Positions 16,482 to 54,053 of a DNA stretch of 59,075 nucleotides are shown here, one piece after another. Source of the stretch: a virus. Under the pieces are notes generated by a model, which did no database searches, was not told the origin of the DNA, and saw only the letters and a program-made list of their open reading frames with translations. Every line of letters starts with the position of its first letter. Position 1 is the stretch's first letter. The stretch covers positions 1-59,075 of IMG/VR virus record IMGVR_UViG_3300010885_033671; one strand, written 5' to 3'. Both the position numbers and the translations under genes were made by a program.

Positions 16482-17537
16482 TTATTTTTTAATGAAAGGT
16501 AACACATATTTTTTGTATCTTTCCCCGCCAGTTGCGGTTTGACCTTCTGATATTCCCATAAAGAATTTTAAAGTCGGGTCATCAAGAGTTACTTGTTGTT
16601 CAGGTAAACTTTGGTCCACAGGATATTTCTTATTGTATTGTTTTCTGTAGATTGAGGTTATTTTATTGTCAGGTCCCCATATAAACATCCATCTTGCGAC
16701 GGGTACAGTATAAGTCGCTCCAATAACATTAGGTCCCCATTTTATTTCAAATGCGGATATGTGGTCATGATTTCTTAAATTTTCAGGTAATTTAGAACAA
16801 ACACTTTCATAAGTATCACTAGAAGCTCCACGTTTTTCACTATTAGTACCATCACAAAAATAAGACCCTGTTAATATGTGGTCTGATTTAATATCTTTCC
16901 AACTTTGAAATGAGGCAATGTTCACTTTAGTTGGTGAGGTTGTTTGTGTAGTTATTTTATCCGCGTATTGTAATGATAAAGTAAGTCCAACATATTGACC
17001 GTTATTCGGGTATTTGGATGAGTCTTTTTGTTCGTCATTTTTACCTCCTGTATTAATAACATCTGCAGAAGTTGCCATTTTTGTTTGAGGTGAAAATTTA
17101 ATACCAAATTTATCTAATTTAGTTTGTAACAATTTATTAAAATCATCACCTCTTCTTTTAGACAAATCTTTATTTTTATCGTAAAGTTCCGTTTCAATTT
17201 TAGACGATGCGGGTGTTGTTAAATTATTTTCAAAATCATAACCTGTCGGTTTACCTCCCCAATGATTACTAGCACCTGTTTGAGTTAGTAAACTTACTAT
17301 AGTCATCTTACCACTATCTCTCATTTGTTTACCTCCAGGAGTCGCATCTATTTTGGTAACCAAATCATTTACAAATTTATCTATAAAATTTTTAGGGTCT
17401 GTTGAATTAACATCGTATCTTGATGTATCTTTATGTCTAATTCTGATTGGTTTTGAATCTTCCTCAGTAATCATCCCATACATTTCTCTAATAATTTTCT
17501 TTTCTATTTCGGTAATTAAAATGTTTTTAATGTTCAT
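16482..17537 (-). CDS. Unknown protein with ITE leader and possible OmpA-like motif
   Basis: The 351-residue product begins MNIKNILITEIEKKIIREMYG. The ILITE segment matches the N-termini of several unrelated proteins in this window and may be a head-targeting leader. Around residues 70-145 the order MTIVSLLTQTGAS ... LYDKNKDLSKRRGDDFNKLL resembles the OmpA/MotB peptidoglycan-binding pattern (a V.G..S strand, then N..LS..R...V...L), with a large insert between the halves. The C-terminal half has a WMFIWGPDNKITS strand and no recognised motif. It is a single-gene unit with its own TATTTAT element, located between a terminator and the gp25 gene. The OmpA resemblance is weak. Confidence 0.5.
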   Translation of the reverse strand: MNIKNILITEIEKKIIREMYGMITEEDSKPIRIRHKDTSRYDVNSTDPKNFIDKFVNDLVTKIDATPGGKQMRDSGKMTIVSLLTQTGASNHWGGKPTGYDFENNLTTPASSKIETELYDKNKDLSKRRGDDFNKLLQTKLDKFGIKFSPQTKMATSADVINTGGKNDEQKDSSKYPNNGQYVGLTLSLQYADKITTQTTSPTKVNIASFQSWKDIKSDHILTGSYFCDGTNSEKRGASSDTYESVCSKLPENLRNHDHISAFEIKWGPNVIGATYTVPVARWMFIWGPDNKITSIYRKQYNKKYPVDQSLPEQQVTLDDPTLKFFMGISEGQTATGGERYKKYVLPFIKK

Positions 17538-46976: not shown

Positions 46977-47141
46977 ATGGAGAACAAAGAGAAAAAAATA
47001 AAGAACTTAAAGATATCAATTGAGGTTCACGATATCCTAAAGACATATTGTGAAAAGAATGGTATCAAGATGTATCGGTTCTTAGAAAGAATGATTATAG
47101 AGAAGTGTAAGGAAAAGCCCGATATCTACGGTGAGAATTAA
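46977..47141 (+). CDS. Small ribbon-helix-helix DNA-binding protein
   Basis: This 54-residue ORF starts MENKEKKIKNLKISIEVHDI and ends KPDIYGEN. A short strand (KNLKISIEV) is followed by two helices (HDILKTYCEKNG and MYRFLERMIIEKC). This is the arrangement of CopG/Arc-type ribbon-helix-helix repressors, in which the strand pairs in a dimer and reads DNA. It is the only plus-strand gene within about 49 kb of minus-strand genes. Its leader holds three half-sites spaced 11 bp, suggesting autoregulation, and it is divergent to the tail sheath. Its stop shares TTAA with the converging gp15-like gene. RHH assignment is by pattern; the target is inferred. Confidence 0.7.
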   Translation: MENKEKKIKNLKISIEVHDILKTYCEKNGIKMYRFLERMIIEKCKEKPDIYGEN

Positions 47142-48175
47142 AGTAAGTTACTTATTAAGTTAATTGTTGATTCTTGACCACTGTCTTGTTTAATAACAAC
47201 AATTTTTAATTTGTCGTTAGTATTAATTTGAATTTCGGTCAAATCTGAACCATAATAATCATTATTAATGAACACATCAAAGGATTCAACATTAATTGTT
47301 GACCCAATTAAAATATTTGTGGTATAATCAAATATTTGTGAATTGGTATCGTTACCAACAACAAATAAAACTGATAATTCATTACCACCTTTAAAAATAT
47401 CTTTCTTAGGTTGTCGTTTAGTAACCCCCGTCTCAAACTCAACAACTTGTAAAACTCGTGAAATTGCTGGTGAAATTTCAAACTCATTTTCATCGATTAA
47501 AAATCCCAACATTGTGAATTCATAACTTTGGATGTAGAACTTTCTTTTTTCTAATTCCATTACTGATTCGTCAGAAATATTACCCATTACAATTGGAATG
47601 TAATGACCCTTGATAACTTGATACGCTTGTTTAGACGCAAACTTTTCAATTACGTTTTTGTTGAACTCGTTAAGTTCTCTCATTCTATTACAAACAATTT
47701 TAACCGTAAAACTAATATCAACAGGAACAGGTTGAGGAATTTTATAAATATCTGTACCACTTCTTTGCCCATCCCATGTTGGAACTTGAGCGTAAAAATA
47801 CTGTCTTCTGTTTGGGATATTATATAACACTGCGGGATTGGTTCCGAATTTAACTTCAGGAACTCTAACCGTTGTTATAAATGGTGGTTCAACATTCTTA
47901 TCAATATTTTGTAAATTCCAAGTCTCAGTAAATTGAGCCCAATTTTGAGTTGTAACTAATATATCAATTGTTGGTATTTTTTTACCGTCAACAATAGTTT
48001 TTAATTCGTCTTTAACAAAATCTAAAAACCCTCTATCTAAATCGGCATGTAATAAAGATTTTGGTAAATAAGTACCATCTTTATTTATCTTATCAACTAA
48101 CTCTTGTCTTCTTGGTAAAAGAGTTTTTGATTCTGTTAACGGAATATGTTTTTTTATTTTCTTAGGTAATGGCAT
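47138..48175 (-). CDS. Tail terminator/sheath completion protein, gp15-like
   Basis: The product has 345 residues (T4 gp15 has 272). Residues about 160-250 (PVPVDISFTVKIVCNRMREL followed by YQVIKGHYIPIVMGNISDES and ISRVLQVVEFE) resemble the conserved middle of T4-like tail completion proteins. Those cap the tail tube and sheath for head joining. The first 30 residues are basic with PLTESKTLLPRR, and the last 90 residues form an extra beta-rich domain. It is one base after the zinc-ribbon gene and shares its stop region with the RHH gene. Location directly upstream of sheath fits the T4 order 15-18-19. Similarity is moderate. Confidence 0.55.
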   Translation of the reverse strand: MPLPKKIKKHIPLTESKTLLPRRQELVDKINKDGTYLPKSLLHADLDRGFLDFVKDELKTIVDGKKIPTIDILVTTQNWAQFTETWNLQNIDKNVEPPFITTVRVPEVKFGTNPAVLYNIPNRRQYFYAQVPTWDGQRSGTDIYKIPQPVPVDISFTVKIVCNRMRELNEFNKNVIEKFASKQAYQVIKGHYIPIVMGNISDESVMELEKRKFYIQSYEFTMLGFLIDENEFEISPAISRVLQVVEFETGVTKRQPKKDIFKGGNELSVLFVVGNDTNSQIFDYTTNILIGSTINVESFDVFINNDYYGSDLTEIQINTNDKLKIVVIKQDSGQESTINLISNLL

Positions 48176-48176
48176 C

Positions 48177-48725
48177 TTAATATTGTCTTATTTCGTTAAT
48201 GACGAATAATTTATTTTTTTGGTTAACCATATCAACCTCTTTGGCTCTATAAACAGGTTCTTTAGTTGACTTATAAACAAAACTATCATACTTGTATGGG
48301 TCGTAAGTAACAATATTATCGTTACTTTCTTCAGGCATATTTTCACAAGGATATTTACAATAATCAACTAATGTTCCAATAACAAACGCGTGAACGTTCT
48401 TTCTTTTTTCTCCTCTAACTTTTTCTTTACCCCCCTGTCTAACTCTAAACTCAACATCTTTTAACTTAACATAGTCGGCGTGCATTATAACAATTGAGTC
48501 ATAAGTAACCGAAAAAGTATGTTTGTGTAAATTATAATAAACCATAACACGTTTTCCTCGGTAATCTTCTTTGAAATTGTTATGTCCACATTCATGACAG
48601 ATATAGGGGTCTTCACCTCCATCAGATAAATCCCATTCCCATCCACATTTGTCACAAATTACTTCATTATTTGTAACAGATTCAAGAATCATTTTTCTTT
48701 GTTCTTCTGTAATTATAATTTTCAT
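48177..48725 (-). CDS. Zinc-ribbon protein with ITE leader
   Basis: The 182-residue product begins MKIIITEEQRKMILESV, a leader shared in style with the next gene. Residues about 24-48 contain ICDKCGWEWDL and YICHECGHNN, two CxxC knuckles spaced as in rubredoxin-type zinc ribbons, so one Zn ion is probably bound. The remainder is a basic, beta-looking domain (KEKVRGEKRKNVHAFVIGTL) with further Cys (DYCKYPC). Function is unknown; nucleic-acid or protein binding is possible. It overlaps the upstream 98-residue gene by 4 bases (ATGA type), so they are co-translated. Confidence 0.65.
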   Translation of the reverse strand: MKIIITEEQRKMILESVTNNEVICDKCGWEWDLSDGGEDPYICHECGHNNFKEDYRGKRVMVYYNLHKHTFSVTYDSIVIMHADYVKLKDVEFRVRQGGKEKVRGEKRKNVHAFVIGTLVDYCKYPCENMPEESNDNIVTYDPYKYDSFVYKSTKEPVYRAKEVDMVNQKNKLFVINEIRQY

Positions 48726-49018
48726 TTTCTCTTTCTAACTTTATTAAAACCTTTTCTAAGTTCATCATTATGTTGTCCTGACACAATCAACCGAAAATCA
48801 TATTTATCAAAATCAATATCGGGATATCTACGTTTAAACATTGAACTAACTCTTTGACTAACCCAATTTTCATACACACCGAAGTTGTCAGGTTTATTAC
48901 CTGGCCCTCCTAGTTTAATGTCATCATTCAACGAATCAATAACATAGTCAACAATCTTACCTATCTCGTGTAACCTTCTTAATACGTCAACCTGATTTTC
49001 TGTGATTAGTATATCCAT
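48722..49018 (-). CDS. Small protein with ITE leader
   Basis: The 98-residue product begins MDILITENQVDVLRRLHEIG, then continues DYVIDSLNDDI and a basic tail ending NKVRKRK. The first 18 residues resemble the leader of the zinc-ribbon protein downstream (I-I/L-I-T-E-x-Q), whereas the rest does not, which suggests a separable tag. It overlaps the neck-like gene upstream by one base and the zinc-ribbon gene by 4 bases. No family is recognised; a basic internal head protein is one possibility. Confidence 0.6.
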   Translation of the reverse strand: MDILITENQVDVLRRLHEIGKIVDYVIDSLNDDIKLGGPGNKPDNFGVYENWVSQRVSSMFKRRYPDIDFDKYDFRLIVSGQHNDELRKGFNKVRKRK

Positions 49019-49581: not shown

Positions 49582-51348
49582 TTGATTACAGGAAATACAA
49601 TTAATGTTATTGAACAAAATGCTTTGTTAATACTTGATACATATTCAGGTGGAAATAACTACATCTTAAAATTAAGATATCAAAAAGAAACTAATAAGAA
49701 GTTTTACCCTACAAGAGCCCAATCTGAATATATTCTTAACTTCCATGACAAGTCTCCAAAGGTCGCTAAAAAATGGGTTGAGTTAGACCCATACTTTGCA
49801 AAAAAGATTGCAGATGAAAAATTATATACCGATATACCTAAAGAAGTTTGGGTTGAAAAGTTATTGGCTGAAAAAGAAAAATCATATCATATTTGGGGTA
49901 AGGTCCTTGATAACGAACAAATACATGATTTTTGGTTACCTAAAGGAGCGTTATTAAAAACTCATAAGGTTGAGAAGGTTGAGATTGATTATTTAAAGTA
50001 TGGTCATAGGCCTCCACTTACTCACCAAAAGGAGGCGATTGAGAAATTAGCAGGTTCCAAAAGATTTATTTTGGCTGACGATATGGGGTTAGGTAAAACA
50101 ACCTCAACAATTATAGCAGCAATAGAAACGGGAGCAAAAAGAATTCTTATAATTTGTCCTGCATCTCTAAAAATTAATTGGCAACGAGAGATTGAAAATT
50201 ATACGGATAGAAGTGTTTATATTGCAGAAGGTAAAAACTTTTCAACAGAACACGATTTTGTAATTGTTAATTATGATATTTTAAAGAATTTCTACGATAT
50301 CAAAAAAAATGAAGAAACTTTAATTTATCAATTCAATCCTGATTTAATTATTATTGATGAAGCACATTATATCCAAAATGGACAGGCTCAAAGAACCAAA
50401 TTAGTTAACCATTTCAGTAAACGAACTGATAAGTTATGGTTATTAACAGGAACACCAATGACATCACGACCAATGAATTATTATAATTTGTTGAACCTAA
50501 TTGAGAGTCCTGTGGCTCAGAATTGGATGGCTTATGCAATTCGTTATTGTCAAGGTTATCAATTTAAAGCGGGTAATAGAAAAATTTGGAATACTTCAGG
50601 AGCGTCTAATTTAGAAGAATTAAGAGATAGAACTTCTCGTCAAGTACTAAGACGTTTAAAGACTGAGGTATTGGATTTACCTGATAAAATTATCACACCA
50701 ATTTATTTACGTTTAAAATCAAAATTATATGAAGGCCTGATGGGGGAATATTATGATTGGTATAAAAATAGAGCCGAAGAATCCTCATCATTAACCGTAC
50801 AATTCTCTAAACTAATGAAAGTTAGACAGGTGATTGCGGAAGAAAAAATAAATGATACAATTGAACTAGCTCAGAATATCATTGACCAAGATAAAAAAGT
50901 TATTATCTTCACAAACTTTACAGATACATTACAAAAAATACATTCTCACTTTGGTAAACAGTCCGTTTATTTAGACGGGTCTTGTACTAAACCACAAAGA
51001 CAATATGCGGTTGACCAATTTCAAGAGAACGATAAAATTAAAGTCTTTGTTGGGAACTTAAAAGCAGCAGGTGTTGGTATTACTCTAACTTCTGCTGAGG
51101 CCGTTATTATGAATGACTTATCATTTGTACCTTCAGACCATTCACAAGCTGAGGATAGAGCGTACCGTTACGGACAAAAATCAAATGTTTCAGTATACTA
51201 CCCAATTTTTGAAAACACTATTGAGGGTGTTATATATGATATGTTGTCAAATAAGAAAAATATTATTGATACTGTAATGGGTGATAACGTAGAAGAAAAA
51301 GGTGATTTTATTGAGGTCTTAATGAACAAGATTAATAATCGGAGTTAG
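49582..51348 (+). CDS. SNF2-family DNA helicase/translocase
   Basis: The product has 588 residues. SF2/SNF2 motifs are in order: Q-like HQKEAIEKL, motif I ADDMGLGKT (about 166-174), Ia CPASLKINW, II DEAHYIQN (about 259), III LTGTPM, IV VIIFTNF, V GVGITLTSAEA and VI QAEDRAYRYGQ (about 522). The compact form resembles SMARCAL1/HepA-type annealing helicases and may fill the role of T4 UvsW in fork regression and recombination. The start is TTG at 49582; an in-frame stop lies 15 bases upstream, and no in-frame ATG occurs until deep in the protein. It opens a plus-strand island, divergent from the neck-like gene. Confidence 0.9.
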   Translation: MITGNTINVIEQNALLILDTYSGGNNYILKLRYQKETNKKFYPTRAQSEYILNFHDKSPKVAKKWVELDPYFAKKIADEKLYTDIPKEVWVEKLLAEKEKSYHIWGKVLDNEQIHDFWLPKGALLKTHKVEKVEIDYLKYGHRPPLTHQKEAIEKLAGSKRFILADDMGLGKTTSTIIAAIETGAKRILIICPASLKINWQREIENYTDRSVYIAEGKNFSTEHDFVIVNYDILKNFYDIKKNEETLIYQFNPDLIIIDEAHYIQNGQAQRTKLVNHFSKRTDKLWLLTGTPMTSRPMNYYNLLNLIESPVAQNWMAYAIRYCQGYQFKAGNRKIWNTSGASNLEELRDRTSRQVLRRLKTEVLDLPDKIITPIYLRLKSKLYEGLMGEYYDWYKNRAEESSSLTVQFSKLMKVRQVIAEEKINDTIELAQNIIDQDKKVIIFTNFTDTLQKIHSHFGKQSVYLDGSCTKPQRQYAVDQFQENDKIKVFVGNLKAAGVGITLTSAEAVIMNDLSFVPSDHSQAEDRAYRYGQKSNVSVYYPIFENTIEGVIYDMLSNKKNIIDTVMGDNVEEKGDFIEVLMNKINNRS

Positions 51349-51364: not shown

Positions 51365-52903
51365 ATGAAAAAAATAGAAGAGAAGATTAACTTAATTACA
51401 GAACAGTTAATCATTGAAGAGAAAAAAGAAAACCAAACTCTCTTTCTAACTGAAATGAAAAAAATAGGGATTGAAAAATTACCTTACGCCTATTCATCAC
51501 TAAAACAATTTATTGATGCCGAAACAATGGAGTACCATTATAATAAACATTATAAAGGTTATGTGGAAAAATTAAATTCCGCTTTATCCAAGAAAGATTA
51601 TGGAGATTTAGAGTTAGAAGAAATTATCAAATCAATTAGTAAATTTGATAAAACAATTAGAAATAACGCTGGTGGTGCTTTTAATCACGCGTTATTTTGG
51701 AAAATGTTATCTCCTAAAACACAGTCACCTTCAGGAGAAATTTTAGAATTAATTAAGAAAAATTTTGGAACATTTCAAAAGTTCAAAGTTAAATTTGAGG
51801 AGATAGCTAAAGAACGTTTTGGTTCAGGATGGGTTTGGTTGGTTCTAACTAAACGAAACACTTTAAAAATTATTTCAACCCCCAATCAAGATAATCCATT
51901 AATGAACGTTGTTGAAAATGGTGGGTATCCTGTGTTAGGGTTAGATTTATGGGAACACGCATATTATCTAAAGTACCGTAACAAAAAAGATGAATACATT
52001 AAAAACTTTTGGAAATGTGTTAATTGGAAATTTGTTAATGAGTTACTTGATTTACGTGTTAAGAAAAAATTAAATGAGACAGTTTCATTAAGAAACGTTT
52101 TGTCTGAAGGTAAGTCTGAAAAATGTGGTAGAGATATGAACGAAGCAATTCGTTTTGTTTTCAATATTAATCCAAAAGTTAAAAATACATTTAGATACGG
52201 GATTGAGGATATTTTAAAAAGTGTCTTTCCTGATAACTTTTATAAAGCTAATGAATATGGTGAAGGTCAAATGTCGGGTATATACGATTTTGAGGGGACT
52301 GGTAGGTCGGTTATCAACAAACTTAATACTAACTACACTTGTTTCTGCATTCTATTGACTGACATTAATAAAGTGTTAAAACATTATGGTCAGCCTGAAA
52401 TAAAAATAATTGGTTTAAAACCTTTTGAACAAATTAGTGAAACTAAAAAATTTGTTAAGAAGTTAAACGAATATAAAGATAGAATTTTTACACCTGAGTC
52501 AGGCACTTTCCAAAATTTAATGGCGACTTTAGGTATTACCCATGATATGGGTAGTGAAACTGAAGACTATACTGTCAAAGTTATGAAAAAAAAATTTGGT
52601 GATGATAATGTTGAACAAATTGGTGAATTAGGTAACAAAGAAGATATGCTAGGGGGTATTGACTGTAAGGTAACTGTTGATAATGTTGAATATACTGCTC
52701 AAATAAAACCATTTAGTCGTGTTAAAAAAGAAAAAGGAACCATAATTGTATTGGATACGGGACAGGTTAAAAAATATCACACATCTTGGATGGTATTCTC
52801 AAGAAAAAATAAAGAGGTCTTAATTTTTGATAATAAAAACGTTAAGATTGTTGGTGGGTCATATGTTTTCCCTGAAGAAGATTTAATTTATACATTGAAT
52901 TGA
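51365..52903 (+). CDS. Fe/Mn superoxide dismutase fused to a nuclease-like C-terminal domain
   Basis: The product has 512 residues. Residues about 1-30 hold an INLITEQ leader. Residues about 36-235 are an Fe/Mn SOD: LPYAYSSLKQFIDAETMEYH, FNHALFW, FGSGWVWLV and LDLWEHAYYLKY. The four metal ligands (His of MEYH, His of NHALFW, Asp and His of DLWEH) are present, so dismutation is plausible. Residues about 245-512 are not part of any SOD. There, SETEDYTVKVMKKKFG, LGGIDCKV and EYTAQIKPFS form an E...D...QxK pattern, like PD-(D/E)xK nucleases. It lies between the SNF2 helicase and the neck protein. SOD call strong; nuclease call tentative. Confidence 0.82.
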   Translation: MKKIEEKINLITEQLIIEEKKENQTLFLTEMKKIGIEKLPYAYSSLKQFIDAETMEYHYNKHYKGYVEKLNSALSKKDYGDLELEEIIKSISKFDKTIRNNAGGAFNHALFWKMLSPKTQSPSGEILELIKKNFGTFQKFKVKFEEIAKERFGSGWVWLVLTKRNTLKIISTPNQDNPLMNVVENGGYPVLGLDLWEHAYYLKYRNKKDEYIKNFWKCVNWKFVNELLDLRVKKKLNETVSLRNVLSEGKSEKCGRDMNEAIRFVFNINPKVKNTFRYGIEDILKSVFPDNFYKANEYGEGQMSGIYDFEGTGRSVINKLNTNYTCFCILLTDINKVLKHYGQPEIKIIGLKPFEQISETKKFVKKLNEYKDRIFTPESGTFQNLMATLGITHDMGSETEDYTVKVMKKKFGDDNVEQIGELGNKEDMLGGIDCKVTVDNVEYTAQIKPFSRVKKEKGTIIVLDTGQVKKYHTSWMVFSRKNKEVLIFDNKNVKIVGGSYVFPEEDLIYTLN

Positions 52904-52925: not shown

Positions 52926-54053
52926 ATGTCAATTATCGCAGAACCAGAAAGAAGTCAACTTTACACAAGATTACGACACCTATTAGGAGCTCCTCTTAGA
53001 AGTGTCGAACTTGAAGATGAGATGTTGGATTCACTACTTGAGTTATCTATTGAAGACTACTCCCAATACGTACAAGATTGGTTAATTGAATCACAATGGA
53101 CCTCTCTTTATAATCTTAATTTAGATACACAATCTTTATCTAAAGCCTTCATAACCAAAAGTTTGACTTATGAAGAACGATACACTTACGCGTACTCCAA
53201 AATTGTTGGTTTACAAGCGGGTGGTGATTCGGTTCTAAAGAAAGACTATATCCAATTAGTTAGAAATCAACAATCATATGAAATCCCTGCAGGTAGAGAA
53301 ATTAATGAACTATTATGGTTCACACCCGCAGAATTAAATAACATCATGTTTGACCCATGGTCTTTCGGGGCGTTAGGTGTCGGAGGAGGACTTGGTGGTG
53401 GAGGAGGACTCGCTCAAGGTGGTGGTATGGCAGGTGGATATTTTATGATGCCCGCTTTTGACATGTTATTAAGAATGCAAGAAATTAATATTCAAAGACG
53501 TATCATCGCAGGTGATTTAACTTATAAAATTACCGCGTTACCTGAAGGTAAGAAAGCGATACATTTAATGAATACACCTGGCGGTAAATTTGATTTTGGT
53601 AATGGGACAATGACAAAAGGTAGAGTTTGGTATCACTATTATGAAGTTGATGGTGCCGACAGAGATAAATGTTTAAAGGACAATCCTGACATTATTAAAT
53701 TACCTTCCGATGTGCCATTTGAGAAAATCTCATGGGTTGATTTAAATAACCCATCACAAATTTGGATTCGTAGATGGTTCTTTGCATATGCTAAAGAATC
53801 CTTATCAAGAGTTAGAGGTAAATTTAGTGGTAATATCAAAACACCTGACAGTGAATTAACCATGGACTATCAATCATTAGCAACTGAAGCGAAAGATGAA
53901 AAAACTAAATTAATTGAGGAACTAATCGGAGCTGAAGGTCGTCTAACAAGATTAAAACCTGAAAAGGTTATGGAAAGGGAGGCGTTACTTGCTGAAAACC
54001 TAAACAAACAAAAGAAATTCACGGCAATGCCGAGACAAATATATGTAATCTAA
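52926..54053 (+). CDS. gp13: Neck protein, gp13-like
   Basis: The product has 375 residues (T4 gp13 has 309). The N-terminus has YTRLRHLLGAPLRSVELEDE and a helix LSIEDYSQYVQDWL. The C-terminal block FFAYAKESLSRVRGKFSGNI, MDYQSLATEAKDEKTKLIEE corresponds in order to the T4 gp13 ends (RLGAP..NVEL...; YA.ALAKE......G..I.G..L..EA..EK..L.EEL). A Gly-rich loop GVGGGLGGGGGLAQGGGMAG (about 157-176) interrupts the middle. gp13 joins the completed head to the tail. It is the only clear head-neck gene in the plus-strand island; the next gene starts on its stop (TAATG). Confidence 0.72.
   Translation: MSIIAEPERSQLYTRLRHLLGAPLRSVELEDEMLDSLLELSIEDYSQYVQDWLIESQWTSLYNLNLDTQSLSKAFITKSLTYEERYTYAYSKIVGLQAGGDSVLKKDYIQLVRNQQSYEIPAGREINELLWFTPAELNNIMFDPWSFGALGVGGGLGGGGGLAQGGGMAGGYFMMPAFDMLLRMQEINIQRRIIAGDLTYKITALPEGKKAIHLMNTPGGKFDFGNGTMTKGRVWYHYYEVDGADRDKCLKDNPDIIKLPSDVPFEKISWVDLNNPSQIWIRRWFFAYAKESLSRVRGKFSGNIKTPDSELTMDYQSLATEAKDEKTKLIEELIGAEGRLTRLKPEKVMEREALLAENLNKQKKFTAMPRQIYVI

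Follow-up and report, generated by a model that had tools for sequence, protein, structure and literature searches.

A superoxide dismutase joined to a probable DNA-cutting domain in one protein of large uncultured T4-like phages

Large uncultured T4-like phages encode a protein in which a superoxide dismutase (SOD) is joined to a probable DNA-cutting domain. The copy described here lies in a 59,075-nucleotide stretch of viral DNA (positions 1 to 59,075 of IMG/VR record IMGVR_UViG_3300010885_033671), hereafter the window, which is a 59-kb fragment. The gene, its parts and its two conserved neighbours are located as follows, with positions counted from the first letter of the window.

49582..51348, plus strand: SNF2-type helicase, the conserved upstream neighbour
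51365..52903, plus strand: SOD-nuclease fusion gene, an open frame from ATG to stop (512 amino acids), in the domain order leader, SOD, helical region, PD-(D/E)XK nuclease
51365..51454, plus strand: N-terminal leader, residues 1-30, variable, ending [LI]-x-E
51446..51454, plus strand: candidate head-protease site 1, residues 28-30 (L-T-E), next residue M31
51470..52048, plus strand: Fe/Mn SOD, residues 36-228 (PF00081, PF02777; best PDB match 1gv3, E 7.8e-58)
51536..51538, plus strand: SOD metal ligand H58 (80/80 and 110/110)
51686..51688, plus strand: SOD metal ligand H108 (80/80 and 110/110)
51944..51946, plus strand: SOD metal ligand D194 (80/80 and 110/110)
51956..51958, plus strand: SOD metal ligand H198 (80/80 and 110/110)
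52100..52108, plus strand: candidate head-protease site 2, residues 246-248 (L-S-E), next residue G249
52112..52549, plus strand: helical region, residues 250-395, from a predicted model
52550..52900, plus strand: predicted PD-(D/E)XK (Hjc-like) nuclease domain, residues 396-512, from the model, Foldseek and VIA
52562..52564, plus strand: predicted catalytic E400 (110/110, also in the standalone relative L167)
52661..52663, plus strand: predicted catalytic D433 (110/110, also in L167)
52700..52708, plus strand: predicted catalytic Q446-x-K448 (110/110; motif III hhh(E/D/Q)hK)
52926..54053, plus strand: neck-like protein, the conserved downstream neighbour (PHROG head-tail adaptor Ad2, E 3.3e-9)

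The fusion is real and not an accident of assembly, since all 80 of the viral-contig loci compared, the top 80 among at least 599 stretches that matched, cover the protein end to end, from residue 1 to residues 508-512, at 59-100% identity. The C-terminal domain of the original prediction is thus present in these 80 homologues, and the motifs quoted there (SETEDYTVKVMKKKFG, LGGIDCKV and EYTAQIKPFS) were all found in the translation; the residues that it named D432 and K447 also exist, but its numbering was off by one and they are in fact D433 and K448. Conservation was followed in a first set of 89 unique proteins, 80 of them fused and 9 lacking the SOD, and in a wider alignment of 110 fused proteins of at least 480 residues, which leaves out two of 479. 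Mean column identity reached 0.85 in the SOD and 0.66-0.69 in the C-terminal parts, against 0.58 in the leader (residues 2-27) and 0.54 in the linker between SOD and nuclease part (residues 229-245), the least conserved among the stretches measured.

Both domains of an Fe/Mn SOD, the N-terminal hairpin and the C-terminal alpha/beta domain, were matched by Pfam above the cut-off (Sod_Fe_N, PF00081, residues 36-116, E 4e-23, 82.1 bits; Sod_Fe_C, PF02777, residues 122-226, E 3.1e-39, 133.6 bits). The ligands H58, H108, D194 and H198 are invariant in all 80 unique fused proteins and in all 110 of the wider alignment, and the complete four-ligand SOD proposed at the outset is supported by sequence. 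Three further residues, H62, Y66 and Q175, to which we assign second-shell roles, are also invariant in the 80 unique fused proteins. The combination of Gly104 with Gln175, which we take to be a manganese-type signature, suggests that the SOD part is of the Mn type.

The C-terminal 270 residues had been proposed as a whole to form a nuclease. This holds for about the last 117 of them, which are predicted by the structure model to adopt the PD-(D/E)XK core fold and which carry an invariant E-D-QxK pattern, but residues of about 250-395 form a separate helical region. The model of the C-terminal part, built from an alignment of 30 representatives, reached a best mean pLDDT of 87.2. In a Foldseek search of the PDB its top match was the homing endonuclease I-Ssp6803I (2ost_C, probability 0.99, E 0.011), with Hjc among the best (probability 0.97) and no match at E <=0.001. 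The VIA comparison placed Hjc 2wcw_C first (Z 8.6, rmsd 3.4, 101 aligned residues, over positions 160-276 of the model); a Z below 8 may reflect a mere common arrangement, and three chains reach 8. Among the first 31 VIA titles, 28 are nucleases, Hjc or other resolvases, restriction or homing enzymes, and the remaining three are SPARDA, RecU and PrfA, the last of which we take to be RecU. Modelled alone, residues 250-396 are helical (best pLDDT 90.8) and gave no clear fold match in the PDB with Foldseek (best E 2.5); the best VIA match, abalone lysin at Z 3.6, was taken as no clear match either. Profile searches of the C-terminal part returned from Pfam only YcaO_C (E 0.0016-0.0025, below the cut-off, in one of 30 members) and from NCBIfam a single match far below the cut-off. 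PHROGs gave no match there, its one weak match lying within the SOD part, and a 30-row profile run against PDB sequences produced chance matches only (best E 0.41).

The E ... D ... (E/D/Q)xK active-site arrangement of the PD-(D/E)XK superfamily is present as E400, D433, Q446 and K448. These four residues and D427 are invariant in all 89 unique proteins and all 110 aligned fusions, and they are retained in L167, a standalone 290-residue relative of about 23% identity from a 735-kb megaphage; by eye, the active-site residues persist in the standalone relatives L279 and L282 as well. Motif III of Hjc has been published as hhh(E/D/Q)hK in the accessible text of PMC8805305; YTAQIK conforms to it, and Q is therefore allowed at position 446. 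Motif I of Hjc, (G/P)x4Ex(9-11)G(F/Y), does not fit, the corresponding stretch here reading G-x3-E, then x11, G and D, and for this reason we call the domain Hjc-like and not Hjc. On the predicted fold and the conserved residues together, residues 396-512 probably belong to a family of Hjc-like PD-(D/E)XK nucleases. A nuclease of this kind might cut host or rival DNA, but it might equally resolve branched DNA of the phage.

The head protease gp21 of T4 cleaves after L/I-X-E (PMC9026906, as excerpted), and this motif is found at residues 28-30 and again at residues 246-248, bordering the SOD on both sides. This lends indirect support to the 'ITE leader' of the original prediction, but ITE itself is loosely conserved: an earlier [LI]-x-E is present at residues 11-13 in many members, with E at position 13 in only 62 of 80, for which reason ITE was dropped as a conserved element, and residues 28-30 are the better conserved. 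At this first site all 80 unique fused proteins have [LI]xE, followed by M in 72 and A in 8. In the wider set E is kept in 100 of 110, the next residue being M in 84, A in 18 and another in 8, so that a methionine and not a small residue usually follows; by eye, several of the ten members that have no E in this column show IDE/A or IQE/Q a few columns away (the slash marks the presumptive cut). The SOD may once have started at M31. The second site adjoins the poorly conserved linker. Among the 80 unique fused proteins, 79 have [LI] here and 79 have the E, and the residue that follows is G in 58, S in 15 and Q in 7. In the wider 110 the counts are 109 for [LI] and 108 for E, and the next residue is G in 77, S in 15, A in 9, Q in 7 and N and T in one each. 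With about 30 residues, the leader is longer than the 10-19 given for the targeting propeptides of T4 internal proteins, yet it falls within the range of 7-65 given for all T4 propeptides, and many T4 internal proteins are ejected into the host (all in the available part of PMC9026906).

Relatives of the window phage encode the matching machinery in part. Both gp21 (PF03420) and gp23 (PF07068) were found in five of the eight related records searched, including all four over 300 kb, and both were absent from the other three (92, 177 and 200 kb), which may be fragments; the 92-kb record carries an identical SOD-nuclease protein and gave no gp23 or gp21 match. One gp21 homologue of a relative is encoded at L163 (7087-7812). 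In the five gp23-positive records the capsid proteins all read LINE/A, with E at residue 60, whereas T4 gp23 reads FLTE/A, with E at 65. MAFFT placed the two in different columns; by eye, we regard them as equivalent.

Short leaders of this kind are frequent in the two genomes of this group in which they were counted, the 309- and 322-kb relatives (records G004 and G002, the source of loci L139 and L053). Counting motif starts within the first 15 residues of mechanically called ORFs, we found an N-terminal [LI]xE[AGS] in 33 of the 362 ORFs of one genome and in 32 of the 325 of the other. Permuting each N-terminus gave an expectation of 9.8 and 8.9, with maxima of 20 and 19 among 300 permutations. 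The control motif [LI]xD[AGS] was without excess (4 and 2 against 7.9 and 7.2 permuted). Motifs with a small residue behind the E are not alone in showing an excess, as [LI]xE[QEDKNRT] was also raised about twofold, at 11.1 and 8.6 per 1000 positions within residues 1-15 versus 4.5 and 4.4 beyond residue 120. Recurring leader forms are MKxIITE/S, MKKxIRLTE/SDL and MNLQENIxRIxxMMxxIxE. Dozens of unrelated proteins in each of the two genomes open with a short leader ending [LI][TSN]E, one repeated form being MKKxIRLTESDLxxIVKRxIxEQ, and leader-bearing ORFs in the window include those at 47138-48175, 48177-48725, 48722-49018 and 16482-17537. A Pfam scan of 10 of 46 leader-bearing proteins gave a single sub-threshold DHH match and nothing else, and the set is therefore without clear functions.

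The setting of the gene is highly constant. With overlapping loci counted, 129 of the 130 informative loci have an SNF2-type helicase upstream, and 132 of 136 have the neck-like gene directly downstream; in three of the five exceptions, which were inspected, an extra gene intervenes. The description of the locus as a phage neck cluster is a fair one, given the adjoining helicase and the Ad2 match. Among the individual loci, L071 (2524-5882) shows by eye an intein-like insertion in the upstream helicase directly after GLGK and an HNH-like endonuclease gene between the helicase and the SOD-nuclease. One subgroup (L072, 7532-8692; L075, 2183-3328) carries an extra gene of 381-386 amino acids, with an MKFIxxE start of its own, between the SOD-nuclease and the neck gene.

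The SOD is the variable element among relatives. Three scans together with the window locus yielded at least 225 ORFs with the C-terminal part (overlapping loci and repeated copies included), 205 with the SOD and 20 without; no ORF in these loci consisted of the SOD alone. A search for distant relatives gave 79 ORFs, some from contigs already counted, 55 with the SOD and 24 without. The SOD-less proteins retain the leader, [LI]SE followed by S or G, and the nuclease, from which it follows that the leader and the site belong with the nuclease and that the SOD is an optional passenger between the sites. L102-type proteins show a scar, with a leader, ...INE/MKKIEIEKL and then ...IISE/GKSERC. A tree built from 87 C-terminal domains requires three changes to account for the absence of the SOD, at least two of them forced by well-supported branches, and SOD fusions stand on both sides of the midpoint root; the fusion is therefore probably ancestral in the sampled group, with several subsequent losses of the SOD. 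Two SOD-less records (318 and 309 kb) gave no match to the Fe/Mn SOD C-terminal family elsewhere. In L312 (4051-5594) the reading frame changes within the linker, immediately ahead of the LTE site, so that the SOD and the nuclease occupy two ORFs; the split is either natural or a sequencing error.

Beyond this group, four queries with the C-terminal part against 50,697 phage records matched only two, of 735,411 bases each. The matches that tblastn gave there for the whole protein were restricted to the SOD and the residues closely flanking it (25-246 of the query). The megaphage protein, used by itself as a query, gave no match, and one pattern-based scan of genome contigs for a bacterial copy (98 pattern matches) returned no relative. 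Standalone relatives of the nuclease part are encoded at L167 (5770-6642), in the 735-kb megaphage, and at L279 (4989-5855); beside the latter lie proteins whose N-termini resemble short leaders by eye (MITEF, MIKNYKSFLKDSILE). By model comparison the C-terminal domain is also present in UniProt A0A8D9CCA0, a 1113-residue protein of an uncultured marine phage, the remainder of which may be a different cargo.

From these features we infer a pathway of cleavage, packaging and injection, with two active enzymes and their targets, in which the protein would be a head-packaged precursor, cut by the prohead protease into SOD and nuclease and injected with the DNA. To this reading we give about an even chance. 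The leader would bring the precursor into the prohead, where a gp21-type protease would make two cuts, each behind an [LI]-x-E, one ahead of the SOD and the other ahead of the nuclease part. The head would then contain a mature SOD, probably of the Mn type, and, detached from it, the PD-(D/E)XK nuclease with its helical region. Both enzymes would then pass into the host together with the DNA; the SOD would clear superoxide early in infection and the nuclease would act on DNA, either that of the host or branched DNA. In favour of a packaged precursor are the end-to-end conservation of the fusion, the invariant residues of both its parts, the predicted nuclease fold, and the conservation of the sites beside a variable linker (at site 2, E in 108 of 110 and G, S, A or Q next in 108 of 110). 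The gp21 and gp23 genes of relatives, the excess of N-terminal motifs in the two genomes and the retention of leader, site and nuclease by SOD-less relatives speak for it as well. It is weakened because E is missing from site 1 in 10 and from site 2 in 2 of 110 proteins and site 1 is mostly followed by M; because the leader exceeds the 10-19 residues of the T4 targeting propeptides (as excerpted in PMC9026906); because three of eight records have neither gp21 nor gp23 and the leader excess extends to non-small residues; and because no Foldseek match reached E <=0.001, while a VIA Z of 8, below which a match may be a mere common arrangement, was attained by three chains. Somewhat more tentatively, the protein may be a self-releasing cargo polyprotein, in which one leader loads two enzymes in equal amounts, among several dozen leader-tagged injected proteins per genome.

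The main rival to a packaged precursor is a protein that works inside the infected cell, where the nuclease, as a branched-DNA resolvase, would act with the SNF2 helicase while the SOD guards the machinery or the cell. We hold this to be possible but rather doubtful, and the same measure of doubt attaches to the role it would have in replication, in recombination or in clearing branches before packaging. Hjc resolvases are the top structural matches, the helicase gene is directly upstream almost without exception (129 of 130), the nuclease part is the constant core and the SOD dispensable, and Pfam matched RuvC in none of five records and Endonuclease_7 above the cut-off in none of five, with one weak match. 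An intracellular resolvase leaves unexplained, however, why [LI]xE[GSAQ] is kept before the nuclease although the adjoining linker varies, and both genomes in which leaders were counted encode a protein whose motif LGLDVSTKTIGWAL looks, by eye, like that of RuvC, although the one copy scanned had no Pfam match.

Two further alternatives concern the activity of either half. Fe/Mn-family SODs are dimers or tetramers. Resolvases have been reported to be dimeric (PMC8805305, in part), so that the SOD might be retained chiefly as a dimerising scaffold for the nuclease and not as an enzyme; we consider this very improbable, as none of the 80 unique fused proteins departs from its ligands or from H62, Y66 and Q175, SOD-less relatives keep the nuclease nonetheless, and the conserved candidate cut sites would part the two domains. 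At least one member of the PD-(D/E)XK fold is thought to be without catalysis (in the accessible text of PMC551604), and the C-terminal fold might likewise be a DNA-binding or structural one. Here, however, all 110 aligned fusions have the E, D, Q and K, and these recur in the relative of about 23% identity, which makes the loss of catalysis improbable.

The C-terminal domain defines a predicted PD-(D/E)XK family without a match in the profile libraries searched (Pfam, NCBIfam and PHROGs), present in phages of up to 735 kb. If the precursor is indeed packaged, it would be a natural case of two enzymes derived from one phage-head precursor, and an antioxidant would join the known internal cargo of heads. 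The leader alone would then allow a large set of injected proteins to be predicted from the genome of this T4-like lineage, so that for one group of large uncultured phages the injected proteins could be recognised by a rule of sequence.

In the open-licence literature, searched by title and the opening of the abstract, we found no description of a SOD-nuclease fusion, of a SOD in a phage virion or of such leaders in large T4-like phages. A family member has evidently been deposited already: the C-terminal model matches UniProt A0A6J5L953, a 501-residue 'superoxide dismutase' of an uncultured Caudovirales phage, in its C-terminal part (275 columns, probability 1.00, 39% identity), and the entry is annotated as SOD only. 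A SOD of viral origin packaged in the particle is known from chlorovirus PBCV-1 (PMC7019647), but that enzyme is of the unrelated Cu/Zn type and comes from an algal virus, and the excerpted description of it mentions no nuclease fusion. From other Fe/Mn SODs (PF00081/PF02777), with which it shares domains, ligands and second-shell residues, the present protein differs in its extra leader and a C-terminal extension of 284 residues. The nuclease part has the spacing of Hjc_15-6 of phage Tth15-6, in which Asp40-Glu53-Lys55 corresponds to D433-Q446-K448 (PMC8805305, as far as its accessible text goes); compared with archaeal-type Hjc, as partly described there, it has Q in place of E, a distance between E and D of 33 positions where Hjc has 30, and a helical N-terminal region, and neither Pfam nor NCBIfam nor PHROGs gave a usable profile match for it. 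The closest parallel for the whole arrangement is provided by the internal head proteins of T4 (IPI-III and Alt, with propeptides cut by gp21), which share an N-terminal leader ending in [LI]-x-E and carry cargo unrelated to head structure, in phages that, like relatives of the present one, encode gp21- and gp23-type proteins. Unlike these, the protein described here, known from metagenomic contigs, has a longer leader, and as a precursor it would unite a pair of enzymes separated by an additional cut site.
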